A DNA stretch of 64,000 bases, taken from Mycolicibacterium boenickei (GTDB lineage Bacteria > Actinomycetota > Actinomycetes > Mycobacteriales > Mycobacteriaceae). The notes beneath the pieces were generated by a model. That model did no database searches, was not told where the DNA came from, and worked only from the letters and a program-made list of their open reading frames with translations. Of the stretch, positions 40,882 through 58,639 are shown piece after piece (within the stretch, counting starts at the first letter, position 1; each line of letters starts with the position of its first letter). Both the position numbers and the translations under genes were made by a program. The stretch lies in contig NZ_AP022579.1 of assembly GCF_010731295.1 (NCBI RefSeq), positions 6,386,001 through 6,450,000 on the forward strand, written 5' to 3'.

Positions 40882-40926
40882 GCCTGTTGCCTCACCCATT
40901 TTGGGTGAGGCAACAAGCAACAGGCT
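40882..40926. repeat. Palindromic element between the two alkyl sulfatase genes
   Basis: The core GTTGCCTCACCCA (40886-40898) and TGGGTGAGGCAAC (40902-40914) forms a perfect 13-bp stem with a TTT loop; an outer AGCCTGTTGC/GCAACAGGCT repeat overlaps the stop codon of copy 2. It can serve as the terminator of copy 2. Its central 17 bp (40892-40908) recur exactly, in inverse orientation, at 45408-45424 upstream of the GMC oxidoreductase, which suggests an operator. Confidence 0.65.
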
Positions 40927-43012
40927 ACGGGGTGACGATGTTGAACCAGAATGGGAAGGTGTCGAGCATGCCGACGAAGTCGTCGACCGATTGTCGGTTG
41001 CCGTCGAGCGTGACCTTGTTCTGGTCGATGCCGTCGTTGAGTTTGAGCTTGCCCAACTGAATCTGGTTCATCGTGTCTTTGGTCAACTTCAAATTCGCGT
41101 TGGCGTTCGGGATCGGCGCAGTCGTGTAGTTGAGTACACCGTTCTCGACGCGCAGACCGTATTGCTTGTTGAGATCGGTGAAGTCAACGTTCAACGTGAT
41201 GTTCTTACCAGCGGCCTTCTGGCCATTGAGTCGCACGGCCAGATAATCGAACATCATCTCCGGAGGCATGGCGTTGATGGTGTCCGGGCTGGCGACATCG
41301 GTTCCGCCCGCGCTCGGCACACCGTTGCGCAGTTCGTAGGCGCCCTGCAGATACACCGACCGCCACGGACCGGATTCCGCCTGATAGCCCATCTGCTCAA
41401 AGCTGTCTGCCAGAAGGTTCTTGGCGTCGGCATTGTTCGGGTTGGCGAACACCACATGCTTGAGGACCATGGCCGTCCACCGGTATTCGCCGTTGTCGAA
41501 GTCCCTCTTGGCCTTCTCCAGGACCGCGGACTCCCCACCCATGTACTCGACGTACTTCTTGCCCGCTGGCTCGGGCGGCAAGTCATCCAGGTCGGCCGGA
41601 TTACCGTCATACCAACCCATGTAGCGCTGATACACCGCCCGCGAATTGTGCTTCAGCGTGCCGTAATACCCACGGTCGGGCCAGAAGTTGTTCAACTCCG
41701 GCGGCATCTGGATCTCTTCGGCGATCTCCGAACCGATCAGGCCGTTGTTCATCAGGCGCACCGACTGGTCGTGAATGTACTTGTACATGTCACGCTGTTT
41801 CTTCCAGTAGTCGATGATCTTGTCCTTGCCCCACATCGGCCAGTGGTGGCTCTGGAACTTCACGTCGATGTTCGGCCCGTAGATGTTGATCGTGTCGTCG
41901 AGGAACTTCGCCCAGATCCGCGCATCACGTACCTGCGCACCGCGCAGGGTGAGCAGGTTGTGCATGGTGTTGGTGGTGTTCTCCGCCATCCACATGGCCT
42001 TGAACTGCGGGAAGTAGGTGTTCATCTCGGTGGGCGCTTCCGTGCCCGGGGTGAACTGGAACTCCATGTCGACACCGTCGACGGTCATCTTCTGCCCCGA
42101 CGCCGAAATCGTGTCGGTGGGCAGGACCAGCGTCGGCAGACCAGTGGACACCGTCATACCCAGGCCACCGTTGACACCACCCTCGGCATTACGTGGCAAC
42201 AGTGCGCCGTACATGTAGACCGCGCGCCGACCCATGGCGTTGCCCGCGATCACGTTCTCGCTGACCGCGTCTTCGACGAAGTTCGCCGGAGCGATGATTT
42301 TCACCTTGCCCGAGTCGACGTCGGCCTGGTTGATGATGCCACGCACGCCGCCGTAGTGATCCACATGTGAGTGGCTGTGCAGCACGGCGACGATCGGTCG
42401 TGGACCCAGCTTCTGATTGACCAGATCCAGTGCCGCCTTGGCGGTTTCGGGCGAGATGAGGGTGTCGTACACGAGCCAGCCGGTATTGCCCCGGATGAAC
42501 GTGATGTTCGACAGGTCATACCCGCGGACCTGATAGATCTTGTCCGGAACCACCTCGAACAACCCGTATTCCATACACAGCTGGGCGTTTCGCCACAAGC
42601 TCGGGTTGACGGTGTCCGGTGCCGGCTTGTCCTCGGCGATGTACTTCTTGTATTCCTCAAGGTCCCACACCACGTTGCCGTCGGCGTCCTTGATCGTCAG
42701 GGTCTCCGGTCGCTCCAGCAGCCCACGTTTGGCATCCTCGAAATCGGACTTGTCGTTGAACGGCAAGGCATCGGCGACCTTCTTGTTGGCTTCCTTGGTG
42801 GCCTCGCTCGCGCCCTTGACACTGTTGTCGGTCTTGACTGCGCCCCCACCGCCGCCGCCGGACGATCCGCCGCCAGACTCGTCGTTGCACGCTGCGATCA
42901 GGGTGGTCGCCACACCGGCCACCGCCAGCCCACCCAGCATCCTGCGCCGCGGCAGCCTCCCACGAAATTCGTCAGACTTATCTGCTTGATATGACTTCGA
43001 ATTGGGATCCAT
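40925..43012 (-). CDS. Alkyl sulfatase, metallo-beta-lactamase type (SdsA-like), Tat lipoprotein, copy 2
   Basis: 695 residues from ATG 43010-43012; a TTG three codons upstream is open but would lie inside the promoter. It is a close paralogue of copy 1 along its whole length, with the same Tat/lipobox start (Arg22-24, Cys42). The linker after Cys42 is a Gly run. The zinc motif is HSHVDH preceded by an extra His ('VLHSHSHVDH'). It has the SCP2-like C-terminal domain. CATAAT lies 8 bp before the ATG. The tandem copies differ mostly in the linker and in surface positions, so they may differ in chain-length preference. Confidence 0.9.
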   Translation of the reverse strand: MDPNSKSYQADKSDEFRGRLPRRRMLGGLAVAGVATTLIAACNDESGGGSSGGGGGGAVKTDNSVKGASEATKEANKKVADALPFNDKSDFEDAKRGLLERPETLTIKDADGNVVWDLEEYKKYIAEDKPAPDTVNPSLWRNAQLCMEYGLFEVVPDKIYQVRGYDLSNITFIRGNTGWLVYDTLISPETAKAALDLVNQKLGPRPIVAVLHSHSHVDHYGGVRGIINQADVDSGKVKIIAPANFVEDAVSENVIAGNAMGRRAVYMYGALLPRNAEGGVNGGLGMTVSTGLPTLVLPTDTISASGQKMTVDGVDMEFQFTPGTEAPTEMNTYFPQFKAMWMAENTTNTMHNLLTLRGAQVRDARIWAKFLDDTINIYGPNIDVKFQSHHWPMWGKDKIIDYWKKQRDMYKYIHDQSVRLMNNGLIGSEIAEEIQMPPELNNFWPDRGYYGTLKHNSRAVYQRYMGWYDGNPADLDDLPPEPAGKKYVEYMGGESAVLEKAKRDFDNGEYRWTAMVLKHVVFANPNNADAKNLLADSFEQMGYQAESGPWRSVYLQGAYELRNGVPSAGGTDVASPDTINAMPPEMMFDYLAVRLNGQKAAGKNITLNVDFTDLNKQYGLRVENGVLNYTTAPIPNANANLKLTKDTMNQIQLGKLKLNDGIDQNKVTLDGNRQSVDDFVGMLDTFPFWFNIVTP

Positions 43013-45447: not shown

Positions 45448-46734
45448 TCACAGGGCCCACCAATTCGCCCCGTCGGAGATCACATCGACAGCCGCACGAT
45501 CCGCAACGGTGAAATCGCTCTTCCCGTCGATCTCCTGATCCCGTGCGGCACTCAGTGTCACGGCTGCGCCGGAGACGTTCTTGACGGTGTACCGGCAGGT
45601 GTTTCGCGCGGCAGTGGGCAGCGTGACGGCCGAAACCCCCGGCGGGACCAGGTAGACGTACTCGGCTCCGGGCGAATCCTCGAACGTGTCACCCCCGGAC
45701 AACGTCGCGACCGTGCGGTGCACCGGCGACACCGGATTGCCCGATGTATTGCCCGCAATCCCGACGTTACGACCTTCGGCCCGCACCGGGGCGATGCTGT
45801 ATCCGTTGTTGTCCCACTGGTTTCCGGAGATCGCGATGTCGTCGACATACTGCGCGTCCACCGCGTAGCTCCAGCCCGCCCCGTCGTCGGTGTTGGCGAT
45901 GAAGTTGCCCGTGATGTTGAACCCTTTGGTCCGGCGGTCGGCGTCAACCGAATAGATGCCGATCGCGGGATACTGGTTCGGCGCGCCCTTGCCGCCGTTC
46001 GTGATGTTGTTGCCGACGATCGCCACCTGCTCGTCATCGGACTCCAGCCACGGCGGCATCGTGAAAACGATGGCCTCCCGGCGCGCGCCTTCACAGATGT
46101 TGCCGATGATCGTCAGTTGCTTGTTCCCGCGTAGCTCGATGTTGTGCTGCGGCGCCCCGTCGAGGTGGTTGGCCAGGATGCGCACCGGCCCGGCCTCGAT
46201 CGACAGGTTGGGCCCCGTCGATCCGATGTTGTTGTTCACGATCCACGAGTCGAAGAACCGGTATGTGGTGTAAATGCCGTAGCCCGTGCTCTGCTCGATG
46301 AAATTGTCATCGACCCAATTCAGCAGGCCCTCGGTGTTGGCGTTGAGCCGCATGCCGTAATCGGTCCACCCGACCATCCAGCAGTGCTTGACGTAGCTCT
46401 TGTCCAGGTCGACGTCCAGTGCCGGCGAGCCCTGAAAGTCGGTATCTATCTTCAGATTCTCGATCCGGCTTTCGGTCCAGCATCCACTGATCGGCGTGAC
46501 GTTCGTGGTGACCCGCAGGCGCGCGGCACGCTCACCGTCACCGAGCAGCCAGACGTGGGAGAACCCGTCCGCGCCGTTCCCGATCGAACCCGACAGCGCG
46601 TATTCACCGGCGGGGAAGAACACGGTGCCGCCACCGGCCTCGGCAGCCTGCCGGATCGCGGCCATCACAGCCGCATGGTCGTCGGTCGTCCCATCCCCGG
46701 TGGCACCGTGCGACGTCACATCGATCACAGCCAT
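45448..46734 (-). CDS. Right-handed parallel beta-helix (pectate-lyase-3-like) protein
   Basis: 428 residues from ATG 46732-46734 (MAVIDVTSHGATGDGTTDD); an ATG at 46776 is also open. The N-terminal 'GATGDGTTDDHAAVMAAIRQA' and 'GGTVFFPAGEY' are landmarks of the pectate-lyase-3 group used by phage tailspikes and polysaccharide-active enzymes. Repeated Asn-rich coils follow ('IVNNNIG', 'IVGNNITNGG', 'ITGNFIANT', 'ISGNQWDNNG'). A small C-terminal beta domain (about 340-428) ends in 'DGANWWAL'. No signal peptide. It lies near the exopolysaccharide operon and may cut or bind a glycan; this is inference. Confidence 0.7.
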   Translation of the reverse strand: MAVIDVTSHGATGDGTTDDHAAVMAAIRQAAEAGGGTVFFPAGEYALSGSIGNGADGFSHVWLLGDGERAARLRVTTNVTPISGCWTESRIENLKIDTDFQGSPALDVDLDKSYVKHCWMVGWTDYGMRLNANTEGLLNWVDDNFIEQSTGYGIYTTYRFFDSWIVNNNIGSTGPNLSIEAGPVRILANHLDGAPQHNIELRGNKQLTIIGNICEGARREAIVFTMPPWLESDDEQVAIVGNNITNGGKGAPNQYPAIGIYSVDADRRTKGFNITGNFIANTDDGAGWSYAVDAQYVDDIAISGNQWDNNGYSIAPVRAEGRNVGIAGNTSGNPVSPVHRTVATLSGGDTFEDSPGAEYVYLVPPGVSAVTLPTAARNTCRYTVKNVSGAAVTLSAARDQEIDGKSDFTVADRAAVDVISDGANWWAL

Positions 46735-46853
46735 GCTGCCCAATCTATTACCGAAGACGGTCGTCCAATCGGCCATCCGGCGTAGCCACAGCGCCCGCAG
46801 TGAAATGATGGAGGCCGCCCACCGCATACGGATCACCAGCTAGGGGACGCCAG

Positions 46854-48047
46854 ATGGTTCGAGTCGTCGTCGCGCTCTTATTCGCTCTCGCCGTCCTCAC
46901 CGCGTGCGGTGGATCGTCGGACCGGGCCGCGACCGAACGTCCCGACGACGCCGGCCACGTTCTCTCCGAAGCGCCGCTGGAGAATCTGGTCCCGGACCTG
47001 CGCGAGGCCAGCTCGTCGGCCAAGACCATCACGTACGCCTCCCGCAACGGAGTCAACGACGCGGTCTCGCACGTGACCGGGACGGTGTTCGTGCCCAAGG
47101 GCAATCCGCCCAAAGACGGATTCCCGGTGGTCGCGCTGGGGCACCGAACGGCGGGGACGGCCGCTGACTGCGCACCGTCCCTGTCGCCCGACCTGCGCGG
47201 CGAAGCGAGCACCGTGGTGGCGCTGCTGAAGGCCGGGTACGTCGTGACCGTGCCCGACTATCAGGGGCTCGGAAAGCCCAGTGCACCCGACGAGTACGAC
47301 TTCCACCCCTATCTGGACTCCACCACGGCCGGCTACAACATGATCGACGCCGTGCGGGCCGCCCGGACCATGGTGCCCGATACGTCGACATCCTGGGCGG
47401 CGCTGGGCGCCCGCGAGGGTGGCCAAGCCGCCTGGGCCGCAAACGAACTCATCGACAACTACGGTTACGACCTCAATCTGGTCGCCACCGCGTCACTGGC
47501 TCCGACGGCGAACATCGACGACCTCGCGGATGCCGCGATGGCCGGCACGCTGAACACCGACCAGAAACTGGCCTACATCGCCTACCTCGCCGCGCTGAAA
47601 GACCAGTACTACTACGACTTCGAACTCGACGACTATCGGCGTGGGGCGGCCCAGGAGAATTGGGATGCGCTGCTCGGCTGTGGGGATGGCGCACAACGAA
47701 TCGCACTGGCGGACAAACTCAGCGCCGACGACCTCCGCCCGGCGGATCCCGAGGCGCTGGCGACCTTGCGGGGCTACCTCCAGAAAACGAACCTGCCGCA
47801 GGGACCCACCGCGGCGCCGATGTACATCATCTACGCCGGGAGGGACTCGGTCATCCCCGCTGCGTCGACGGAGCGGGCACTCACCGAAGCCTGCAAGATG
47901 GGCGACGGCATCCAGATCGCCTTCTGGCCCGACGCCACACGGGAAGCGGTGGAACCCGTCGCCGCGCTGGGCTGGCTCAACGATCGCATGAAATCCATTC
48001 CGGCGGCCAATGACTGCCAGGCATTCCTCGCAGCTCACCCACGCTGA
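46854..48047 (+). CDS. LIP-family (secretory lipase-like) lipoprotein lacking catalytic Ser
   Basis: 397 residues with GGGGA before the ATG and a lipobox 'AVLTAC' (Cys18). The LIP-family fold is clear: 'VVALGHRTAGTAADCAPSL' near residues 92-110, 'VTVPDYQGLG', and a late Asp in 'YAGRDSVIP'. The nucleophile elbow, normally G-x-S-x-G, reads 'LGAREGG' with Arg187 in place of Ser. The C-terminal region normally holding the His reads 'FWPDATREAVEPV' without a His. The protein is full length, so it is probably a non-hydrolytic binding protein. Its stop is 4 bp from the convergent polysaccharide operon. Confidence 0.8.
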   Translation: MVRVVVALLFALAVLTACGGSSDRAATERPDDAGHVLSEAPLENLVPDLREASSSAKTITYASRNGVNDAVSHVTGTVFVPKGNPPKDGFPVVALGHRTAGTAADCAPSLSPDLRGEASTVVALLKAGYVVTVPDYQGLGKPSAPDEYDFHPYLDSTTAGYNMIDAVRAARTMVPDTSTSWAALGAREGGQAAWAANELIDNYGYDLNLVATASLAPTANIDDLADAAMAGTLNTDQKLAYIAYLAALKDQYYYDFELDDYRRGAAQENWDALLGCGDGAQRIALADKLSADDLRPADPEALATLRGYLQKTNLPQGPTAAPMYIIYAGRDSVIPAASTERALTEACKMGDGIQIAFWPDATREAVEPVAALGWLNDRMKSIPAANDCQAFLAAHPR

Positions 48048-48051
48048 TCCG

Positions 48052-49740
48052 TCATCCCCGGCCGACTGGCTCGTTCACCCGGTAGAGCCGCCAATCCGGC
48101 TGGCCATCACCGTCATTGGGGATCTCCAACTCCAGCGTCGCGACCTCGGCCCCGGTGTCGTACAGCGTCGGGTAGCGAACGTTGAGTGCATCGGAAGTGC
48201 CCCGGCCGGTCCGCGGCACCGCGAGCAGATACCGGATCCCGTTGGCGGGCGGATCGTTGAGCAGCTCGGTGAAATCCGGGTCTGACGGGATCACGAAGAC
48301 CCGCGGCCTGCTCGACGCGGCCAGGATACCGAAACCGTAGACGGTGTCGGTGATCACCGAGCTGTCCGGCAGATTCAGGGTCTCCAGGTACTGGGCGATC
48401 TTGCGCTCGGTGCCGAACGTCCTGGCGATCCGGTGCTCGATGGACTTGCGATCGGTGACGTTGTACGGGTCGGGGTTCAGTATCGCGCCGAGCCCGTATT
48501 CCTGTGGCGCATATTTGGGTTGCGCCATGCCGAACAACGTCAGCGGAATGCCCAGGGCAACCGTTGCGGCGACGGCGACGTACCGCGCCGTGGAACCGCG
48601 CTGCGGTGTCTCAGTCGGCGCCGGTGGCGCATACCTACCGCGTCGGGTCGGCTCTCTGAGCACACCGTCCGGCACCGCGAGCATCGCCAGGCAGGCCGTC
48701 ATCGGAATGGCGATGATGAAGAACCGCAGGAATGGGAACGTCGAACCGGTTGCGTAGCTGTAGGTCTGGAATGCCAGCACAGCACCGAACATCGTCAGCG
48801 GCACGACGAGCACCTGCCAGTGCGGGCGCGCCCAGCGTTGCATCGCAACCCACAACGCCAGCGGCAGCATGGTCGGAGCCAGCAGCATGATGCAGACCAT
48901 GGCGAACTCGACGCCGTTACCGAAGTTGGGCGCCGTCTGCCCGGACTGCTCGAGGATGGCGGTGTTGCCGTACTGCGAAGTGAATTGCGCGAACGCCTCA
49001 CCGGTGATCAACCAGCCCGCGGCTGCCCACCCGAAGAACGCCAGGACACCCGGGCCGCTCACGATCAGCATGTCCAAGACGGCCCGCCGCATCCTGGGCG
49101 GCGGCTTGGCGCGCAGGTACGTGGTGATCCCCACGAGCAACCCGGCGGAACCGACCGAGGCGAGCGCGTCGTAGCGGGTGAGGTAGGCCAGCCCCATCGC
49201 GATGCCGCCGGCGGTGATGAGATGGTGCACATCGTCATCGGCCATCCACAATATGAGCCGACGCACCGCCCACGACATGAAGAAGATGAACGGCGCCTCA
49301 CTCATCCCGTTGGAGCCGTAGAAGACGATCATCGGGTTGAGGGCGAACAGCAGCGTGATGGTCACCGAATATGCCCGTGGCAGACCGCGATCGGTGCCCA
49401 TGCTCAGGATCTGCACGGCGGCGCCGGCCATGAACAACGACGACATGATCGTCCCCGCGAAGGCCCGGACCGCGATGTCGGGCCACCACGGGCTCAGCAG
49501 GACTGCGGGAATCTGCACCATGGCGGACACCGGGGTGAAGATGAACCCCAAGGCCGCCAGGTGCGGATCGCGGCTGAACAACACGGATTGAGTGGCCACC
49601 ACGCGAGACAGGGTGTCGCCCATGATGAAGTCGTGGCCGACCTGCAGCCAGTAACCGACCGCGAGGTAGACGACCAGCAACGCGAAATAGACCGTGATCT
49701 TCATTCGGCGGTCCGAGCCGCCGAGCACGGCGCCGGTCAC
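48052..49740 (-). CDS. GT-C-like polytopic membrane glycosyltransferase
   Basis: 562 residues from GTG 49738-49740, which overlaps the BcsA-like stop. About eleven helices occupy residues 13-420, and a soluble C-terminal domain of about 140 residues faces outside. The first periplasmic loop has acidic residues 'GHDFIMGDTLSR', the expected place of the GT-C catalytic Asp, and 'YLTRYDALASV' resembles ArnT/PMT-type proteins that use polyprenyl-linked sugars. Last gene of the four-gene operon. Probable role: adding a side sugar or lipid-linked unit to the polymer. Confidence 0.7.
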   Translation of the reverse strand: MTGAVLGGSDRRMKITVYFALLVVYLAVGYWLQVGHDFIMGDTLSRVVATQSVLFSRDPHLAALGFIFTPVSAMVQIPAVLLSPWWPDIAVRAFAGTIMSSLFMAGAAVQILSMGTDRGLPRAYSVTITLLFALNPMIVFYGSNGMSEAPFIFFMSWAVRRLILWMADDDVHHLITAGGIAMGLAYLTRYDALASVGSAGLLVGITTYLRAKPPPRMRRAVLDMLIVSGPGVLAFFGWAAAGWLITGEAFAQFTSQYGNTAILEQSGQTAPNFGNGVEFAMVCIMLLAPTMLPLALWVAMQRWARPHWQVLVVPLTMFGAVLAFQTYSYATGSTFPFLRFFIIAIPMTACLAMLAVPDGVLREPTRRGRYAPPAPTETPQRGSTARYVAVAATVALGIPLTLFGMAQPKYAPQEYGLGAILNPDPYNVTDRKSIEHRIARTFGTERKIAQYLETLNLPDSSVITDTVYGFGILAASSRPRVFVIPSDPDFTELLNDPPANGIRYLLAVPRTGRGTSDALNVRYPTLYDTGAEVATLELEIPNDGDGQPDWRLYRVNEPVGRG

Positions 49741-51224
49741 GCCACGGCCTTCGCTTCGGCGGCCGCCTCCCCGGGGCGCCCGGACAGACCGTGAAACGTC
49801 TTCTCCCAGTAGGACGGCTGGCGGATCAACTGGTACAGGCCCTTGGCCGCGGCGATGCTCATCATCAGCCAGAACAGCGGCACGCTCAGCGCAGCCAGGA
49901 GCAGATCGGACCGGTCGTCCTCACGCAGCGCGATCATGTTCATGTACATCACGGTCACATTGCCGATGATCATCGCGATCAGCGCCGGGAAGTAGATGAG
50001 CGGCGGAAACACCTGCGCGACCACCCCGGGCTGGCCCAGGAACCACAGCACGGTGATGAACCAGAACAACAGGTTGAGTACCGCGATGATCGGCGTGCCG
50101 GCGAGCACCAGGTTGAACCGGACGAAACTGCGTAACCCCAAGGTGCGGTACAGCTTCAGCGGCTCACGGATATGGACCAGCCAGGTCTGCAGATAACCCT
50201 TGTACCACCGGGACCGCTGCCGGACCCAGTTGATCGCGTCACTGTTGGCCTCCTCCAGCGTGTACGAGTCGATCACAGCGGTGCGATATCCGTATGACGC
50301 GATGCGCAGGCCGAGGTCGGCGTCCTCGGTGACGTTGAACGGATCCCAGGCGCCGATCTCCCGCAGGATGTCGCGGCGCAGGTGATTGGACGTGCCGCCC
50401 AACGGAATCGGCGACGAGCTCACCATCATGCCGGGCAGCAGGTAGCCGAACCACAATGCATACTCGGCGGTGAACCAGGCGGTCAGCAGGTTCTGGTGCC
50501 CGTTGTGATACACCAGTTTGGCCTGCACACAGGCCACCTCGTCGGGAAGATCGCGGAACGCCGCGACCACCCGGCGTAACTGCAACGGCTCGGGCAGGTC
50601 CTCGGCGTCGAAGATCGTGACGATCTCCCCCGTGGCGAAATGCAGACCGTAGTTGCACGCCTTGGGCTTGGTCCGCGGATCCGCCGGCGGCACCAGCAGG
50701 ATGGTGATGACCTCTGACTCTCCGCATGCTTTCGCTGCTTCGATGGTCACGTGATCGTCGGCCTCCAACAGCAGGAGCACCTGCAAGCGGTCCCGCGGAT
50801 ACTCCAGCGCATCCATCGCCGCGATGAGGTCGGCCACCACTTCCGGCTCGTTGTAGGCAGGCACCAGGATGGTGTACGGCGGCAACTCCTCGTCCGGAAT
50901 GGCTCGCGCCACGTCATCGGGAATGACGATGGGCCGTGACGCGAGGCCGCGCTTGAAGATCAACACCCGGTCGGCGAGTGTCAAAAGATAAGCGAGCGTG
51001 CACAACCCGATCAGCACGACGACGGTCTCCAGCGGCTTCCAGATACCGAGGGCGACCACGATGATCAGAACGGCCACGATCACCGGCCGCTGCCAACCCA
51101 TCAAGGGCTTCGACGCCGAATGCATCGGCTCGTCGTCACGCAGGCCGTTGATCGCCCGGTCGAGCGCGTACGCCCGCTGTTCCTCGGTGACGCTGTCCGC
51201 ATCGAACGTCCCGTTGAATGTCAT
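49737..51224 (-). CDS. Family 2 processive glycosyltransferase, BcsA/cellulose-synthase-like, no PilZ domain
   Basis: 495 residues. Two N-terminal helices are followed by the GT domain and four C-terminal helices. Processive beta-glycan synthase motifs are complete: 'VPAYNEPEVV' at the start of the domain, DxD as 'FDAED', the TED base in 'VTEDADLGLR', and QxxRW in 'RQRSRWYKGYLQTW'. The protein stops after the membrane part, without the PilZ domain through which c-di-GMP activates true BcsA. It uses a UDP-sugar in the cytosol and would secrete the chain. It overlaps both neighbours by 4 bp. Confidence 0.88.
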   Translation of the reverse strand: MTFNGTFDADSVTEEQRAYALDRAINGLRDDEPMHSASKPLMGWQRPVIVAVLIIVVALGIWKPLETVVVLIGLCTLAYLLTLADRVLIFKRGLASRPIVIPDDVARAIPDEELPPYTILVPAYNEPEVVADLIAAMDALEYPRDRLQVLLLLEADDHVTIEAAKACGESEVITILLVPPADPRTKPKACNYGLHFATGEIVTIFDAEDLPEPLQLRRVVAAFRDLPDEVACVQAKLVYHNGHQNLLTAWFTAEYALWFGYLLPGMMVSSSPIPLGGTSNHLRRDILREIGAWDPFNVTEDADLGLRIASYGYRTAVIDSYTLEEANSDAINWVRQRSRWYKGYLQTWLVHIREPLKLYRTLGLRSFVRFNLVLAGTPIIAVLNLLFWFITVLWFLGQPGVVAQVFPPLIYFPALIAMIIGNVTVMYMNMIALREDDRSDLLLAALSVPLFWLMMSIAAAKGLYQLIRQPSYWEKTFHGLSGRPGEAAAEAKAVA

Positions 51225-52744
51225 CGGGCAGCCTCCGCGTGGGCGAACTGCGCGGCGACGAACGCGCGGCCGAACTCAGTCAACAGCTCCTCGTCTTTGA
51301 AAGACGGCCGGCTCTGGACCAGCACCGCATTACCCCGGAACAGCACGGTCAGCAGATTGCGGAGGGTCGACACCAGACCCCGCTGCGGATTGGGAAACGG
51401 CGCGTCCGGCAGATGGTTGTCCACCGCGAAGATGTCGACGACCATCTCCTCGTCCTGGTCACCCCACGCGAACCGCAACACGTCCCAGGTGACCAACAGA
51501 CGGTCGTCGACCGCCGACACCAGCTTGCCCGTGACCCCGTGCCCGAGGTCGATCGACAGCTGGCTGCTCAGCCGCGCAGCCGTGGTGTCATAGAGCACCT
51601 GACCGGGGTAGGCGTCGAACGAGAACGGCAGGTCGCTGACGATGCTGTCGACCATGAGGGTGCGCGGCGCCGACAGTTTGTCGAACCGCGGATCACCGAC
51701 GTCGGCGGTCATCCGCTGCCGCACCAGTTTCGCGCCGTCGCCGTAATAGCGAGATACGTCGGCGACGGTGTCCACCCCGGTGATCGACCAACCCGGCGGG
51801 GCAACCAGCCCCTGCCCGGGCGTCAGGTCGAATGGCACCGTCCGGCTGATCTGGGTGGTACTCGTCTGAGTGGGAAGCGGCATGAGCGCCAATCCCACCG
51901 CGACCGCGACCACGACCGGGATGGCCGACCAGATCTGTTTGGCGGCAAGGGGTTCGACCTTGCGGGTGAACAGCTCCTTGGTCAGGTTCCGGCGCCGGTA
52001 CACGAACGCGGCGCCGCCGACCACCACGATGGACGTCAGCGACGGGATCATCTGATATGCGAGGATCGGCGCGTCGGGCGCCAGCACCTCCAGACCCACG
52101 AGCACCACCAGGCCGAAGGCGAACGACACCGCCGCTCCGATGGCCGCGCGCCTGCGCGTGCGGCCCACCGCGATCGCCGAAGCGGCGGCGGCGATCAACA
52201 ACGTCCCGATCCCGGCGGGGAACTTCCCGCCGCCGAGCAGGATCACGACCACCTGATAGGGCAGCGCCGATGACAGTCCCATCAACGCCCAGGCCCAACC
52301 GAATCTGGCCACCGGGCGGATCCCGAACAACACCAGTGCGCTGCTGAGTACGAAAACCCACATCGCGAAGATGTCGAGGCGCACCAGGTGGAAGAACTCG
52401 GAGTACCGCTTGAGCAGGACACCTTGGACCATAAGTGCCAGGCCGAGCCCGATGACACCGACGATCACATCGGTCTGGCGGTCATGGATGGGCAGTTCGG
52501 TGCGGCGACGGAAATCGATCCCGACCGCCGCCAGGGCGGCTGCGACCGGAACCATCCACATGTATCCGATCAGGCCGCCGGCCAGCGTGGTCTGCCACAG
52601 GTTCGCCAGACTGTGCCGGAATGCCACTGCGGTGAGCGCCAGGATGAGGGCCCAACGGGCAGTCAGCCGGACCGCTGGATTCAGCGAGAACCACCACGCT
52701 GCCAGCCGGTCCCACTCGCCACGGGTGTCTGCGGCCGTCGTCAC
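51221..52744 (-). CDS. Polytopic membrane protein of the exopolysaccharide operon, unknown function
   Basis: 507 residues from GTG 52742-52744, overlapping the BcsB-like stop. Around ten hydrophobic helices (residues 20-310) are followed by an outward C-terminal domain (about 320-507) rich in charged residues ('GDPRFDKLSAPRTLMVDSI', 'QDEEMVVDIFAVDNHLP'). I do not recognise the family. There is some superficial likeness to EpsH/exosortase membrane cores, but I cannot find the Cys/Arg/His catalytic set. Its position between BcsB-like and BcsA-like genes suggests a polymer export or modification role. Confidence 0.6.
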   Translation of the reverse strand: MTTAADTRGEWDRLAAWWFSLNPAVRLTARWALILALTAVAFRHSLANLWQTTLAGGLIGYMWMVPVAAALAAVGIDFRRRTELPIHDRQTDVIVGVIGLGLALMVQGVLLKRYSEFFHLVRLDIFAMWVFVLSSALVLFGIRPVARFGWAWALMGLSSALPYQVVVILLGGGKFPAGIGTLLIAAAASAIAVGRTRRRAAIGAAVSFAFGLVVLVGLEVLAPDAPILAYQMIPSLTSIVVVGGAAFVYRRRNLTKELFTRKVEPLAAKQIWSAIPVVVAVAVGLALMPLPTQTSTTQISRTVPFDLTPGQGLVAPPGWSITGVDTVADVSRYYGDGAKLVRQRMTADVGDPRFDKLSAPRTLMVDSIVSDLPFSFDAYPGQVLYDTTAARLSSQLSIDLGHGVTGKLVSAVDDRLLVTWDVLRFAWGDQDEEMVVDIFAVDNHLPDAPFPNPQRGLVSTLRNLLTVLFRGNAVLVQSRPSFKDEELLTEFGRAFVAAQFAHAEAAR

Positions 52745-54666
52745 GACGTGCCCCGGGACCGCCCACGCCAAGCGACCAGACCGGCGCCCAGCGCCGCGAG
52801 CACCACAGCACCGGCTCCGACCCACAGCCGCAGCGACTTTCGATCCGCGACGACCGCACCTTCCGGCTCGGCGGCCGGCGTGGTCAGCGAGAAGGGTTCG
52901 CGTCCCGGCATCGCCAGCGCGGCGTTACCGGACAATCCCGACCACAGTTCCACGTCACCGCCCAACCAGCCGAGCAGCCGGTCCAGCTCGGCAGGCGCAT
53001 TGCTTGAGGTAGCGATCAAGACCGACCGACCACCCGTGTACACGGACTGCAGTGATCCGAAGCCAACCTTCGGATCCAGGGTCAGCGTGGACGAGTTGCC
53101 CGACCCGTCAACGTCTTCGACGGTGATGACGCCTTCGGAATCGACCGCGACGGGCAGCGCGATCCGCTTGTCGTTCCAGCCCTCGGCACTGATCAGCAAG
53201 GCAGGGTTGGACGAGGCAACCGCGTCGGCCACCGAACGGACCTCCGCCTCGAACGGACGCGAGCTCAGGCGCTGCAGCCCGGTCAGGATCTGGACCGCAC
53301 GCCGGAGATCGGCGAACCCTTCGTCCATGCCCACCTCGACCCGCGGCATCAGCGCCTGCGGCAGCGACTGGAAACCGGCAGGCACAGGAGGTTTCGCCAG
53401 CTTGCTCTCCACCGGGCTCTCGCCGTCGATCGTCAGCGTGATCGGCTGGAATTCACCGCACCGGCCGGTGTTTCCCGCGGCATCGATCGCGACGTCCAAG
53501 TTGGTGTAACGCTGCAGGAGCCGGTCCGGTACGTCGACCCACCTGTCGATCCGGCCGTTCGCCTCGGTCGACCACCGATCGAGGGTCTGCCCACCGATGC
53601 TGACCACCACTTGGCCCGCGATACCGGCGGGCAGTGGGGTGTAGGACCCCTGCAGATGGATCCGCACATCGTGCACCGTCCGACCGAGCCTGGTCTGATC
53701 CAGCGGGATGGTGACCCTGGGATTGACCAGTGCGGTCGCATTGACTCCGGGCTGGCCGAGCTGACGGATCGTGGTGTGCTCAGCGGGCAGCTGGGGGGTG
53801 TTGGACAGCGGCCCCACAACGGCCTTCGACTGCACGGCAAGTTTCGAAATGTCGCTGGACAGCAACCGGGCCTGGTTCGTCACCTCACCGGCGGGTCCCG
53901 AAATCAGCAGGGCCGGAACCGTATTCGGGCCCTGCAGGCTCAGGCCGGGTGCGTCGCCCTCGCGCACTATGACCTGGCGCTCCAGCGGCTGCGGCGCCGC
54001 GACCGGTCCCCCGTCCGTCGTGACGATGTCGACCGCCGGCCGCTGGAAGCTGTAGCGGGCCACCACCGCCGTCGCGACCCGGATCGCCGCATCGGACTCG
54101 GACCGTGACGGATTCGGCGGGACGAACAGCGTCAGCTTGTCCAGCACCGGCGGCAGGAAGTCGGCGATCGCGGTCGGCGGTTGTTCCAGACCGGTGAACC
54201 GCACGTCGCTGTTGATCAGCCGCAGCGGATTGTGCAGCTCGTATGCGCAGTACCCGTCGGGCATGGTCAGGTAGCTGTTCAACTGCACCGTCACCGCATT
54301 CCCCACCACCCGCGCACCCGCGAGGGGAACGGTGATCGATGCCTGATCCGGCGGCAGCGGTACCCGGGACAGCACCCGCCGATCCTGGGTCACCTCGAGA
54401 GTCCCGCCGCGGGTGTTGACGGGGAGTTGCACGGTCCCGACCAATTCGGCGGGGGTCAGTCCGCGCGGCACCGGGACGGTCAGGGTTTGCGACCCCTGAA
54501 GGCCGTACAACGCGATGTCCGAATCGACACCGAGCGTGCGGAGGTTCAGCGTCGGGGAACTGACCAGCGAGGGGTCGTCGCCCGGGGCGGCCGTGGCCGT
54601 CCCCGGCATGACGACCGCGGTAGCGACAAGGGCGGTGGCAAACAGCCGAGAGATGCGGGCAGTCAC
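52741..54666 (-). CDS. BcsB-like periplasmic cellulose-synthase subunit
   Basis: 641 residues from GTG 54664-54666, giving a clean signal peptide (ISRLFATALVATAVVMPG, cleavage near TATAAPG). Large beta-rich, carbohydrate-binding-like domains contain 'FTLFVPPNPSRSESDAA'-type segments between helical linkers. A single C-terminal membrane helix (LWVGAGAVVLAALGAGLVAW) precedes a basic tail, the topology of BcsB, which anchors and activates BcsA through that helix. First gene of the operon; all four genes overlap by GTGA. There is no c-di-GMP-binding signature. Confidence 0.78.
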   Translation of the reverse strand: MTARISRLFATALVATAVVMPGTATAAPGDDPSLVSSPTLNLRTLGVDSDIALYGLQGSQTLTVPVPRGLTPAELVGTVQLPVNTRGGTLEVTQDRRVLSRVPLPPDQASITVPLAGARVVGNAVTVQLNSYLTMPDGYCAYELHNPLRLINSDVRFTGLEQPPTAIADFLPPVLDKLTLFVPPNPSRSESDAAIRVATAVVARYSFQRPAVDIVTTDGGPVAAPQPLERQVIVREGDAPGLSLQGPNTVPALLISGPAGEVTNQARLLSSDISKLAVQSKAVVGPLSNTPQLPAEHTTIRQLGQPGVNATALVNPRVTIPLDQTRLGRTVHDVRIHLQGSYTPLPAGIAGQVVVSIGGQTLDRWSTEANGRIDRWVDVPDRLLQRYTNLDVAIDAAGNTGRCGEFQPITLTIDGESPVESKLAKPPVPAGFQSLPQALMPRVEVGMDEGFADLRRAVQILTGLQRLSSRPFEAEVRSVADAVASSNPALLISAEGWNDKRIALPVAVDSEGVITVEDVDGSGNSSTLTLDPKVGFGSLQSVYTGGRSVLIATSSNAPAELDRLLGWLGGDVELWSGLSGNAALAMPGREPFSLTTPAAEPEGAVVADRKSLRLWVGAGAVVLAALGAGLVAWRGRSRGTS

Positions 54667-54847: not shown

Positions 54848-55534
54848 TCACGTCAACGAAAGCCGCGCCACCATCTCCCCCGTCGGCCGCGGCGACCCGC
54901 CGTCGGGCTCCATGGTGAACGCCAACGCCGTCGAATCCCCCAGATCCCGCACCATGGCAGTGGTCGACGGTGCGACCGCCTCCAGCATTCCCGCGGACGC
55001 CGGCCCCGCATCGGTCATCAGCCACATCTGATAGGCCATGCCCGGCGGGGGCGGTGCCGCGTTGTTCACCACCAGGACCCCGCTCCGTTCGTCGCGGGAG
55101 TACATGAACGTCGCGGTGCCACCGGCGCCGAGTTGCGCTGTCGCCGTGCGGACATCGCCCGCCGAGAGCACCTGTTCCGCCGTCGTCGGGGCGCTCGCCG
55201 GACGGAGGGCCAGGCCCGCACCGAAGCCCCCCGCAGCGACCACCACGGCCGCGGCGGCCGCCACCAACCCTGTGCGCCAACGGGAGCGGTCACGGCGCGG
55301 AGCCCCCGAAACCGCAAGCGCCTGTTGCCGCAGCGACGCCGGTGGCGCCGTCGCGTACGTCGACGAGGCCTTCGCCATCGCCTCGCGCACCGCTCGTACC
55401 TCGGCGCGGAACGCCTCGGCGATCTCGGCGGGCGCATCGGCCAGCCGACGTTCGATGTCGGCGCGCTCGGCGTCGGACACCGCATCCAACGCGTATGCGG
55501 TCGCCAGATCGGGCAGCTCGGAATCGCTGGTCAT
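54848..55534 (-). CDS. rskA: Anti-sigma-K factor
   Basis: 228 residues from ATG 55532-55534 (MTSDSELPDLATAYALDAVS), overlapping the sigK stop (ATGA). The N-terminal anti-sigma domain has no zinc motif, as in RskA. One membrane helix (LVAAAAAVVVAAGGFGAGLAL) is at about residues 90-112, and the C-terminal RskA domain contains 'SGVLVVNNAAPPPPGMAYQMWL'. Regulated proteolysis of this membrane protein releases SigK (family knowledge). Confidence 0.9.
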   Translation of the reverse strand: MTSDSELPDLATAYALDAVSDAERADIERRLADAPAEIAEAFRAEVRAVREAMAKASSTYATAPPASLRQQALAVSGAPRRDRSRWRTGLVAAAAAVVVAAGGFGAGLALRPASAPTTAEQVLSAGDVRTATAQLGAGGTATFMYSRDERSGVLVVNNAAPPPPGMAYQMWLMTDAGPASAGMLEAVAPSTTAMVRDLGDSTALAFTMEPDGGSPRPTGEMVARLSLT

Positions 55535-56130
55535 GTCACCCCCAGACAATCACGGAGCCGGCGCAGCCCATCGCGCATTCGGGTCTTGACCGTGCCCAGA
55601 CTGGTCGACAGCCGCTCCGACACCTCCGGGTACGTCAGCCCGTCGTAGTACGCCAGCTCGATGGCCTGTCGTTGCAGGTCGGTCAGCGAACCCAGGCAGT
55701 CGGCCACCTGCCGTCGTTCGTCGGACCGGATCGCCGAATCTACGACCACATCGGTGTCGGGTTCGGTGCTCACCGCGGTGTAACGCGCCTCGCGCCGGCT
55801 TGAGGCCACTTCGGACCGCACCCGATCCACCGCGCGGCGATGCGCCAGGGTCATCAACCACGCCAGCGCCGACCCCTGCTGCGGGTCGTAGTCCGACGCA
55901 TTGCGCCAGACCTGCGCGTAGACGTCCTGCGTGGTCTCTTCGCTGTATCCGGGATCGCGCAGGATGCGGATGACCAGTCCGTATACCCGGGCGCTGGTGG
56001 CGTCATACAGCCCGGCGAACGCCTCGGCGTCGCCGCGGGCCACCCGGCGCAACTGAGCGTCGAGGACGGTGCTCACGTCCGGCATGCGTGCCATCGATCG
56101 GTAGCCTAACGCCGAGTCGACACTGCTCAT
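55531..56130 (-). CDS. sigK: ECF RNA polymerase sigma factor SigK
   Basis: 199 residues. Region 2 is 'FAGLYDATSARVYGLVIRIL' and 'EETTQDVYAQVWRNA'; region 4 is 'LTDLQRQAIELAYYDGLTYPEVSERL', then a helix-turn-helix 'STSLGTVKTRMRDGL'. It starts only 6 bp after the dipZ stop and overlaps rskA, so dipZ-sigK-rskA is one operon read from the dipZ promoter, which carries a SigK-type sequence. Hence SigK should amplify its own synthesis. Confidence 0.93.
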   Translation of the reverse strand: MSSVDSALGYRSMARMPDVSTVLDAQLRRVARGDAEAFAGLYDATSARVYGLVIRILRDPGYSEETTQDVYAQVWRNASDYDPQQGSALAWLMTLAHRRAVDRVRSEVASSRREARYTAVSTEPDTDVVVDSAIRSDERRQVADCLGSLTDLQRQAIELAYYDGLTYPEVSERLSTSLGTVKTRMRDGLRRLRDCLGVT

Positions 56131-56136
56131 CGTCGC

Positions 56137-57852
56137 TCACCCATAAGTGAACGAGAAAGCCTGCAGCCCTTGGCTCAACCGGACCTCGATCTCACCACGG
56201 TGCGCGTCGCGATCACTGACGATCTGACGCAGGGTGGGCGGCCCGCTCACCGCCACGGTTGTCGTCTCACCGCCGCGCAGCACCGTCACTGTGCCGGTCC
56301 CTCCCACGACGAGGTAAACCTGCCTGGCCTGGTAGTTGAGCTTGATCGCCGAACCGTCGCCCTGCGCGGTGGCGCCCTGGTAGTCCAGGTGCCACGGCCC
56401 GCGCAGCGCGAACGAGTCGCCAGGCAGGTTCTTCGGATAATCGAACGTCGCGTCGCCCTCGTCGTACGTGCCACCGCCCGCATAGTTGATCTCCTTGCCC
56501 ACCCCGAGATAGGTCTCGGGCGTCAGCACCGACGTCGGCGTGGAATCGGCTGAGTTCACCGGGGCCGGCAATGCGCTGCCCTTCGCTTCCATCAGCAGCT
56601 CGCGGATCAACCGTTCCGTCGTGTCGTAGCCGCCTTCACCGAACTTCACATGCCGCACAACACCATTCGCATCGATCAGGTACTCGGCCGGCCAATAGCG
56701 GTTCTCGTAATTCGTCCACGTGGAGTACGAGTTGTCCAGGGCGACCGGATACGTGATGCCCAGGTCGGCCGCACCTTTCGCCACGTTGCCGGGAACCCGC
56801 TCGAATGCGTACTCCGGGGTGTGCACACCGATCACGGTCAGACCGGAGTCCTGGTATCTGTCGTACCAGTCGACGACGTGGGGAATCGCCCGTTGGCAGT
56901 TGATGCACGAGTACGCCCAGAAGTCGATGAGTACCACTTTGCCGCGCAGCGACTTGAGGTCGACCGGGGCTCCGTCAGGCGTGTTGAGCCAGCTGGCAAT
57001 GCCGGTGATTTCCGGTGCGGGACCGCAGTTCTGGAGTTCCTCCGCACCTTCTGGGCATTTCGACAACTCCTCGCCGGCGGTCGGACCCAGCCGGTCCCGA
57101 ACCTCGCCGGCCGTGGCGACCCGGTCCTGCAACCCGCTGGTGTAATCCGGAATCGCTCGCTGCAGCTTCGCCGGGACGTCGGCAGCCAACGCCACCGCGA
57201 ACACCAGCATGACGATGCCCCCGATCAGCCGGATCTTGCGCTGCTGACGGCGGAATGCGTTGACGCGCTCGACAACCCGCCGCCCAGCCAGCGCGAAGGC
57301 AAACAGAGGAAGCGCGGCGCCGATCGCGAACGACAGGGTCAGCACGACTGTGTTGGCTCCGATCGAACCGGTCGCTCCGGCGACGACGATTGCCGCGAGA
57401 ACCGGACCGGCGCATGGCACATAGAGCACACCGAGCGCCAAGCCGAGGCCGAAACCACTACTTCCAGAACCGAACTGCTTCTGCGGAATCCTGCTGAACG
57501 GTTTCTCCAGAAGCTGCTCGAGGCGCGGGAAGATCAGGCCCAACCCGATCAGTGTCAGCGCCAGCAGGCCCGCCCAACGAAGCGCGTCCTGAGGCAGGTG
57601 CAACAGCTGCAGCAGCGCCGAGCCGGCCAACGTCACCACGCTGAAACTCAGCACCAGCCCGGCGATCACGCGATACGGGCGCAGTGTCTCGGACAGTGTG
57701 GGCTTCGCGGAAACGATCGTCGTGCCGTGCGCCTCGGTGACGCGCGCACTCTGCGCTCCCGAGAAGAAGATGACCGGCAGCACCGGCAGGATGCACGGCG
57801 AGATGCCGGTGATGAGACCGCCGAGGAATCCGATGAGCACCAATGTGTACAT
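56137..57852 (-). CDS. dipZ: DipZ-like CcdA/thioredoxin fusion, membrane thiol-redox protein
   Basis: 571 residues from ATG 57850-57852. An N-terminal CcdA-type membrane domain carries the redox pair Cys20 (GISPCILP) and Cys147 (VPCAGP). A periplasmic thioredoxin-like domain has CINC (Cys316, Cys319) in '[16 protein letters not shown]', and a C-terminal beta domain (about 430-571) follows. It passes reducing power across the membrane to exported proteins. Partner of the divergent Mpt83-like protein in the SigK regulon. Extra Cys266 and Cys276 lie in the linker. Confidence 0.9.
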
Positions 57853-57859
57853 GCCCGGT

Positions 57860-57886
57860 ATTCGGCGCCGACGTCGCGCCGGATTG
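57860..57886 (-). promoter_or_regulatory. SigK-type promoter of dipZ-sigK-rskA
   Basis: Minus strand: CAATCC (plus 57881-57886), 15-bp spacer, CCGAAT (plus 57860-57865). This differs from the SigK -35 CCATCC at one position and keeps the -10 exactly. The start codon of dipZ is 7 bp beyond the -10, so the transcript is close to leaderless. Confidence 0.65.
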
Positions 57887-57900
57887 GTTCGTATCGAAAC

Positions 57901-57927
57901 CCATCCGGATCCGCACCCGCTCCGAAT
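57901..57927 (+). promoter_or_regulatory. SigK-type promoter of the mpt83-like gene
   Basis: CCATCC (57901-57906), 15-bp spacer, CCGAAT (57922-57927): a full match to the SigK consensus as I know it from mpt70/mpt83. It lies 58 bp before the ATG at 57986, giving a leader of about 50 nt with GGGAG near the start. Confidence 0.75.
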
Positions 57928-57985
57928 ACCCACCGACCGAGAAAGCGACGGCGGTCACCGTCAATCACCCACAGGGAGTCGGAAA

Positions 57986-58639
57986 ATGTTGATCCTTCAA
58001 TACAAGATGGCCGCGGTGGCGGCGATGTCTGCGACAGCACTGTTCGCGCTGCCCGCCTGTTCGACTGACACCGCACAATCCGCACCGGCAACGCCGGAGA
58101 TGACCATGGCACCCGCGGCACCGATAGCCGCAGACCCGGCGTCAGACCTGGTCGGCCCGGGCTGTGCGTCGTACGCGGAAAAGGTTCCGTCCGGTCCGGG
58201 GTCGGTCATGGGGATGGCCCAGGATCCGGTCACCGTCGCCGCGTCGCACAACCCGCTGCTGACGACGCTCACCGCGGCAGTCTCCGGAAGGCTGAATCCG
58301 AACGTGAACCTGGTCGACACCCTCAACGGAGGTGAGTTCACCGTATTCGCGCCTACCGACGACGCTTTCGCCAAGATCGACCCGGCCACCATCGAGGTGC
58401 TGAAGTCGGACTCCGCGATGCTGACCAAGATCCTGACCTATCACGTCGTGCCCGGGCAGGCCAGCCCGGCCAAGGTGATCGGCAACCGGCCGACCGTGCA
58501 GGGTGCATCCGTGCGGGTGACCGGCTCGGGTGACGCGCTGAAAGTCGATGACGCATCGGTGGTCTGCGGCGGGGTCCACACTGCCAACGCGACGGTCTAT
58601 CTCATCGACACGGTGCTCATGCCGCCCGCCGATCAATGA
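57986..58639 (+). CDS. Fasciclin-domain lipoprotein, Mpt83/Mpt70-like
   Basis: 217 residues from ATG 57986 with GGGAG upstream. The signal peptide ends in a lipobox 'ALPAC' (Cys25), so it is an Mpt83-type lipoprotein rather than a secreted Mpt70. A Pro/Ala-rich linker leads to '[15 protein letters not shown]' and one fasciclin domain (about 84-215) with '[14 protein letters not shown]' and 'LTYHVVPGQ'. Two Cys, in 'GPGCASY' and 'VVCGGVH', probably form a disulfide, a likely substrate for DipZ. Divergent from dipZ with a SigK promoter. Confidence 0.9.

Follow-up and report, generated by a model that had tools for sequence, protein, structure and literature searches.

The window analysed here, a stretch of 64,000 nucleotides from Mycolicibacterium boenickei (contig NZ_AP022579.1, positions 6,386,001 to 6,450,000 of the forward strand), contains four consecutive open reading frames (ORFs) on the minus strand, here called genes A, B, C and D, which an initial annotation made from the sequence alone had placed at the same coordinates and read as an exopolysaccharide operon resembling those for cellulose synthesis. 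Gene A (52741..54666, 641 aa, with a GTG start) encodes a BcsB-like protein with a C-terminal transmembrane (TM) helix and an Arg-rich tail, and gene B (51221..52744, 507 aa) an exosortase/EpsI-like membrane protein that lacks the catalytic Cys-Arg-His residues. They are followed by gene C (49737..51224, 495 aa; Pfam Glyco_trans_2_3, 6.1e-27), which encodes a processive-type family 2 glycosyltransferase (GT2) with no PilZ or MshEN domain, and by gene D (48052..49740, 562 aa), which encodes a polytopic membrane protein resembling type C glycosyltransferases (GT-C) and having a C-terminal domain. Neighbouring genes overlap by GTGA at the A/B and C/D junctions, as had been stated for the whole operon, but by ATGA at the B/C junction. 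GC content is alike in the operon and its flanks. The nearest named relative, as judged by protein C, is Mycolicibacterium houstonense (98% identity), a match that points to the M. fortuitum group.

The N-terminus of protein A appears signal-peptide-like by eye, and its C-terminal hydrophobic stretch and Arg-rich tail resemble those of an exosortase substrate. The window protein matches no Pfam family, and Pfam BcsB is reached by three of 13 members of the A alignment, at best with an expectation value of 3.9e-4. An hhalign comparison of 38 A proteins with nine BcsB sequences, on which the homology depends and of which eight were added after E. coli BcsB alone proved too weak, gives a probability of 97.6 (E 3e-12) over 546 columns, end to end; when BcsB is compared instead with reversed A or with B, C and D as controls, the probability is at most 0.3%. 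On this profile comparison, gene A is a BcsB homologue, in agreement with its initial description as a BcsB-like anchored protein. BcsB proteins consist of two carbohydrate-binding and two flavodoxin-like domains, and the AlphaFold2 model of A (mean predicted local distance difference test score (pLDDT) 81.8, predicted template modeling score (pTM) 0.79), with a predicted succession of beta, alpha/beta, beta and alpha/beta regions and a final helix at residues 609-636, fits this plan.

Several BcsB-like genes are also found outside such sets. One of them lies in the same genome (G000:C1:830395-832284; locus L032, 8468-10282), is 30% identical and is followed by two LIP-family genes, with no B, C or D match within the fetched stretch. 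Others (L047, L049, L050, L052, L056; L038, L040, L042; L046, L059) variously adjoin Wzz-/Wzy-like genes, TetR pairs or a wax ester synthase gene.

Protein B had been described as an unrecognised membrane protein with an outer domain. This holds for library searches, in which B yields chance hits at most from Pfam and NCBIfam and the window protein has no match to PF09721 (matched by 10 of 11 exosortase-side proteins), but profile comparison assigns it to a family that had not been foreseen. Its identity was traced via a relative in another locus (L130), which has a GT2 and a GT-C from the same families as neighbours and is recognized by Exosortase_EpsH (9.1e-25) and TIGR04178 (56.8 bits, cut-off 23). 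The B profile scores 130 bits with this relative, in two stretches spanning most of the protein, and an hhalign comparison of 35 B proteins with 10 exosortases gives a probability of 99.9 (E 4.6e-36), the membrane domain included, against 1.0% for reversed B, 0.3% for D and 0.6% for C. Searches of the window genome with Exosortase_EpsH found no match (one of 14 control genomes has one), and searches of PDB sequences with profiles of A, B, D and exosortases returned nothing relevant. The AlphaFold2 model of B (pLDDT 88.9, pTM 0.86) predicts a helical half followed by a beta domain at residues 319-441.

Passages of two papers name the catalytic residues of exosortases as Cys, Arg and His (PMC4343526), set in Cys-x-Gly, Asn-x-x-Arg and His-x-x-x-Gly motifs (PMC1569441). 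These were counted in 35 B proteins, that of the window and 34 chosen from the 44 B stretches found in loci with both A and B, near-copies and two contig-end fragments being left out. The Cys is present in 0/35 sequences, the Arg in 0/35 and the His in 2/35, and 48 alignment columns at the Cys segment are empty in all 35. Five exosortase-side rows were aligned with B; all three residues are kept in four of them and not in L191. No Cys, His or Ser is conserved at 90% or more among the 35 B proteins, and the CSG motif is absent from all labelled B ORFs of the named loci. Since B and the exosortases still share other conserved positions (alignment columns G174, R176, W458 and Y557), B is not simply decaying. 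In a tree rooted on Bacillota exosortases, an outgroup of our own choosing, the 35 B proteins form one clade (Shimodaira-Hasegawa-like approximate likelihood ratio test 100) beside triad-bearing exosortases from Chloroflexota, Dormibacterota, an Acidimicrobiaceae metagenome-assembled genome (MAG) and L130. As judged from these alignments, gene B is a de-catalysed relative of the exosortase/EpsI family.

Protein C contains LEADD, DAED, TED and QRSRW motifs. The initial annotation had listed DxD, TED and QxxRW; the latter two are present as described, but DAED is not a strict DxD. The best solved relatives of C are cellulose synthases, and its top NCBIfam hit by E-value is CelA, although its 76.9 bits are far under the cut-off of 699.1. 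Lower scores are obtained with MftF (70.4 bits), the XrtG-associated GT2 model TIGR03111 (38.0 bits, cut-off 363.95) and the XrtP-linked GT2 model (32.3 bits, cut-off 520). The predicted absence of PilZ and BcsZ is borne out: PilZ has no match in C or elsewhere in the genome (five of 14 control genomes match), and the GH8/BcsZ family PF01270 has none in the genome (three of 14 match). MshEN, a c-di-GMP-binding domain according to the passages seen of PMC8669469, was not found in the window C. The window D has no Pfam match; PMT_2 is reached by five of 13 members of the D alignment, at best with 1.1e-7, the window protein not being among them.

The same genes recur together within the genus. 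A search of 148 genomes with the C profile, at a threshold of E 1e-60, detected 57 places in 49 genomes; scores exceed 450 bits at 48 of these places, in 42 genomes. Neither A nor B lies close to the nine weak places (280-392 bits), which were treated as another family and excluded. A separate GT2 group of the genus (L096-L101, L103) is flanked by conserved membrane-protein genes that by eye resemble transporters of the major facilitator superfamily. Gene calling places A, B, C and D together in 45 of the 48 strong loci, and the arrangement is therefore beyond chance. The three exceptions are two loci cut at contig ends (L088, L095) and one in which the caller missed D (L082), which was recovered by an ORF search of the same contig in the collection of named loci (L199). 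Two layouts can be distinguished. Type I (25 places) is mostly A-B-C-D, with variants B-A-C-D (L034, L065, L066) and B-A-B-C-D (L062, L063, L064), and has rpsC of the S10 operon in the fetched stretch in 15 places; type II (23 places) is B-C-A-D, with pta adjoining in 20. Two copies of B are seen in L033, L062, L063, L064, L148 and L155, mostly as B-A-B-C-D, an arrangement from which loss could produce the single-B and B-A-C-D layouts.

Beyond the genus, the initial annotation had proposed a search for the same four-gene order in other actinobacteria, and the set is found across Mycobacteriales. The A+B clade of the C tree takes in 41 of the 80 named loci, and all four genes are present in 40 of these, the incomplete one being a cut Dietzia contig (L167). 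The genera with the set include Nocardia, Rhodococcus, Prescottella, Antrihabitans, Gordonia, Williamsia, Lolliginicoccus and a Corynebacterium MAG. A search of the phylum detected C at E 1e-90 or better in 23 of 396 genomes; full sets occur in another genus of the same family (L128) and in another family of the phylum (L129, where B scores only 24 bits), and a further set belongs to an uncultured actinobacterium (L177). The suggestion of a machine adapted to the mycobacterial envelope is thus too narrow.

A comparison of GT2 sequences places these sets in a single lineage. In a careful tree of 54 rows, the A+B rows form one clade (27/27, support 100/99), and the 41 rows of the side without MshEN are likewise supported at 100/99. 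A quick tree of 84 rows, from which two second or weak C rows had been excluded and for which long rows had been trimmed, agrees (A+B clade of 44 rows, support 97); it includes the 54 rows of the careful tree. Among the GT2s sampled, in trees without BcsA, the sister rows of the A+B clade include exosortase-linked GT2s, and related GT2s of Chloroflexota, Dormibacterota and Acidimicrobiaceae are encoded close to triad-keeping exosortases. MshEN itself is detected by Pfam in eight of eight outgroup proteins (seven above the cut-off) and 0/2 on the clade side, and by a local profile, seeded with eight of the proteins later counted, in 24 of 26 outgroup ORFs, 14 of 15 further ORFs of the phylum and 0/58 on the clade side. 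The one phylum ORF without it is a 248-residue fragment in a locus of the A-D type (L144). In L131, L132 and L133, MshEN-GT2 and GT-C genes lie beside two conserved genes, one of which has a weak PBP_like_2 match (L131).

Proteins with PE[ASPT]P-hydrophobic-basic tails are encoded in the fetched stretches of five of 10 loci that have a CSG-bearing exosortase and of two of 88 others, one of the two being an A protein; the pattern was defined after viewing examples, and the Fisher value of 7e-5 is descriptive. Such PEP-CTERM-like tails (VPESP, VPEAP or LPEAP with hydrophobic and basic stretches) are seen in L130, L182, L194, L197, L200 and L216, on actinobacterial, Chloroflexota, Dormibacterota and Bacillota contigs. 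The 2006 description, in the passages seen, linked PEP-CTERM to bacteria with an outer membrane (PMC1569441).

Genes within three positions of the set were counted at 68 loci; because at least three of these, as judged by length, are the same contig twice (L033/L147, L064/L155, L077/L154), the counts are not of independent species. Outside Mycobacterium, 21 of 28 loci encode a protein resembling glycoside hydrolase family 5 (GH5) near the set; within Mycobacterium, 0/40 do. Two of its members reach PF00150 below the cut-off (1.1e-3 and 3e-4), and its best PDB hit is an endo-beta-mannanase (E 0.018). In L129, a GH3 protein adjoins D. The flanking genes of the window are those initially named: a convergent gene for a LIP-family lipoprotein-like lipase (46854..48047, plus strand; Pfam LIP, 2.9e-13) and one for a beta-helix, pectate-lyase-like protein (45448..46836, minus strand; Pfam Pect-lyase_RHGA_epim, 2.6e-12). 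Both are accessory, with nine and seven occurrences among the 68 loci, all within the genus and with one contig double-counted in each (L033/L147). A sulfatase gene, known as atsA in M. tuberculosis, is near the set in 18 loci; a role in sulfation of a polymer was rejected and its presence taken as positional, the gene being a neighbour of the S10 operon.

Immediately upstream of A are rskA and sigK (54848..56130, minus strand; RskA_N/RskA_C, and 293.3 bits with the SigK model, cut-off 226), which are outside the conserved set. Control of the operon by SigK was considered and rejected: a SigK-type pattern has one match in the window, against 1.49 expected, and this match is located upstream of the fasciclin gene and not in front of A. 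The region 54848-58639, with sigK, rskA, a DsbD/thioredoxin-type (DipZ-like) gene and the fasciclin gene, separates the operon from the S10 ribosomal operon, unlike in many relatives, where the set directly follows the S10 genes. Elsewhere in the window, two tandem large ORFs (38725-40734 and 40925-42940) belong to one sequence cluster.

With a probability of roughly 0.6, we propose from these sequence comparisons that A, B, C and D form a single glycan synthase of the inner membrane that works independently of c-di-GMP and has a pseudo-exosortase as a structural subunit. The homology of A to BcsB and the absence of PilZ and MshEN support the initial proposal of a BcsA/BcsB-like synthase without c-di-GMP control; "cellulose" as its product is unproven. 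In the cytosol, C would use a nucleotide donor to polymerise a sugar, and it would thread the chain through its own membrane channel, and A, as a membrane-anchored outer subunit of the BcsB type, would receive and guide it. D may be a GT-C enzyme that acts outside the membrane and uses a polyprenyl-phosphate donor to add a sugar as a branch, cap or linkage. B would derive from an exosortase/EpsI fusion; having lost Cys-Arg-His while retaining the membrane bundle and the outer domain, it may now be a structural or assembly subunit holding the other parts together. The lineage may have begun with a GT2 and a GT-C under c-di-GMP control; MshEN would then have been lost and an exosortase linked, and finally the exosortase active site would have been lost and a BcsB-like protein would have arrived. 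A more specific version, which we regard as tentative and on balance doubtful, makes B a protein-sorting enzyme turned structural subunit of the synthase: its former substrate pocket would permanently clamp the TM-Arg tail of A and so dock A, its ancestor would have been an active exosortase releasing PEP-CTERM-type proteins beside a GT2/GT-C synthase, and the catalytic segment would have been deleted in the Mycobacteriales line.

Several observations weigh against the proposed synthase or its history. HMMER searches of the PDB with A profiles find no BcsB even at E 10, and the A alignment against E. coli BcsB alone reaches 1.4% probability (E 0.036). The set does not form a single operon everywhere, since in R. 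erythropolis (L158) and Prescottella (L159) one strand carries B and C and the other D and A. One B is called short, at 335 aa (L050). The 14 other rows of the MshEN-less side, which lack A, are grouped at just 71/82, and triad-bearing exosortases are patchy in the sister rows (5/15), which leaves the order of gain and loss open at the middle step. In addition, disruption of EpsH in Methylobacillus left the polymer unaffected, according to a passage of PMC1569441.

The association of C and D invites a different explanation, in which C would load a single sugar onto polyprenyl phosphate and D would transfer it to an envelope protein or glycolipid, with A and B holding the acceptor. A GT2 and a GT-C are the classic pair for lipid-linked glycosylation, and no part of the set is linked more widely than C and D, which lie no more than 4.5 kb apart in 55 of 58 clade-side loci and in 25 of 40 others. 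The score of C with MftF, an oligomer-making GT2, points the same way. However, C has the TED and QxxRW motifs, its best solved relatives are cellulose synthases, and a BcsB homologue is linked to it, so that we consider lipid-linked glycosylation unlikely. In another reading, A and C would be a plain cellulose synthase with changed accessory genes; the BcsB homology of A, the rank of CelA among the hits of C and the GH5-like neighbour in relatives could be cited for it. The CelA score is nevertheless far below the cut-off, the genome has no PilZ or GH8 match, and exosortase-like and GT-C subunits belong to the set. Judged with trees that do not include BcsA, a plain cellulose synthase is distinctly improbable. 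We give least credence to B as a sorting peptidase that still acts through other residues and whose substrate would be A or an unlinked protein. B is present in all uncut sets and the tail of A is substrate-like, but the triad is missing, no Cys, His or Ser of B is 90% conserved, and the PEP-like tail pattern matched a single A protein (L149) in the fetched Mycobacteriales stretches.

The proposed A-B-C-D synthase can be compared with several known systems. It shares with BcsA-BcsB the combination of a processive-type GT2 with a BcsB-type outer subunit, and in loci outside Mycobacterium the nearby glycanase-like GH5 gene has a position similar to that of BcsZ in Bcs operons; it differs in the missing PilZ and GH8 matches, in the low CelA score of C and in the additional exosortase-like and GT-C-like subunits. 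Streptomyces has an actinobacterial cellulose-like synthase, CslA/GlxA. Exosortases of the EpsI type (PF09721; PEP-CTERM) are likewise tied to polysaccharide genes, and B aligns nearly full-length with those having an outer C-terminal domain; however, B has neither the Cys segment nor the Arg, its His is unconserved, and no PEP-CTERM-like protein is seen beside it in the fetched stretches. The XrtG (TIGR03111) and XrtP GT2s of NCBIfam are also exosortase-associated, but C, which scores weakly with both models, is far below both cut-offs, and to our knowledge these systems have no BcsB. NfrB, an exopolysaccharide synthase of E. coli with MshEN and GT2 parts, resembles the outgroup GT2s, which carry MshEN at the N-terminus; L131, the one tested, is matched by the MshEN part of the NfrB models. 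On the window side, the domain is absent. NfrB works with NfrA and YbcH, according to a passage of PMC8669469.

In the titles, abstract openings and passages covered, neither the four-gene set nor a synthase with a dead exosortase is described, and no polymer is assigned to these operons. The main text of an operon survey (PMC7112194) has no word beginning with 'mycobacter'. Passages of a review (PMC6364259) mention that M. neoaurum and M. cosmeticum have putative components of a cellulose synthase and that M. tuberculosis has neither BcsA nor BcsB. The set described here, conserved in many species of Mycolicibacterium, Nocardia, Rhodococcus and Gordonia, is a concrete candidate for a synthase of a surface glycan, and a mapped case of a pseudo-enzyme, in which a triad-less exosortase is retained in the set by a GT2 line that is without the c-di-GMP domain of its relatives.

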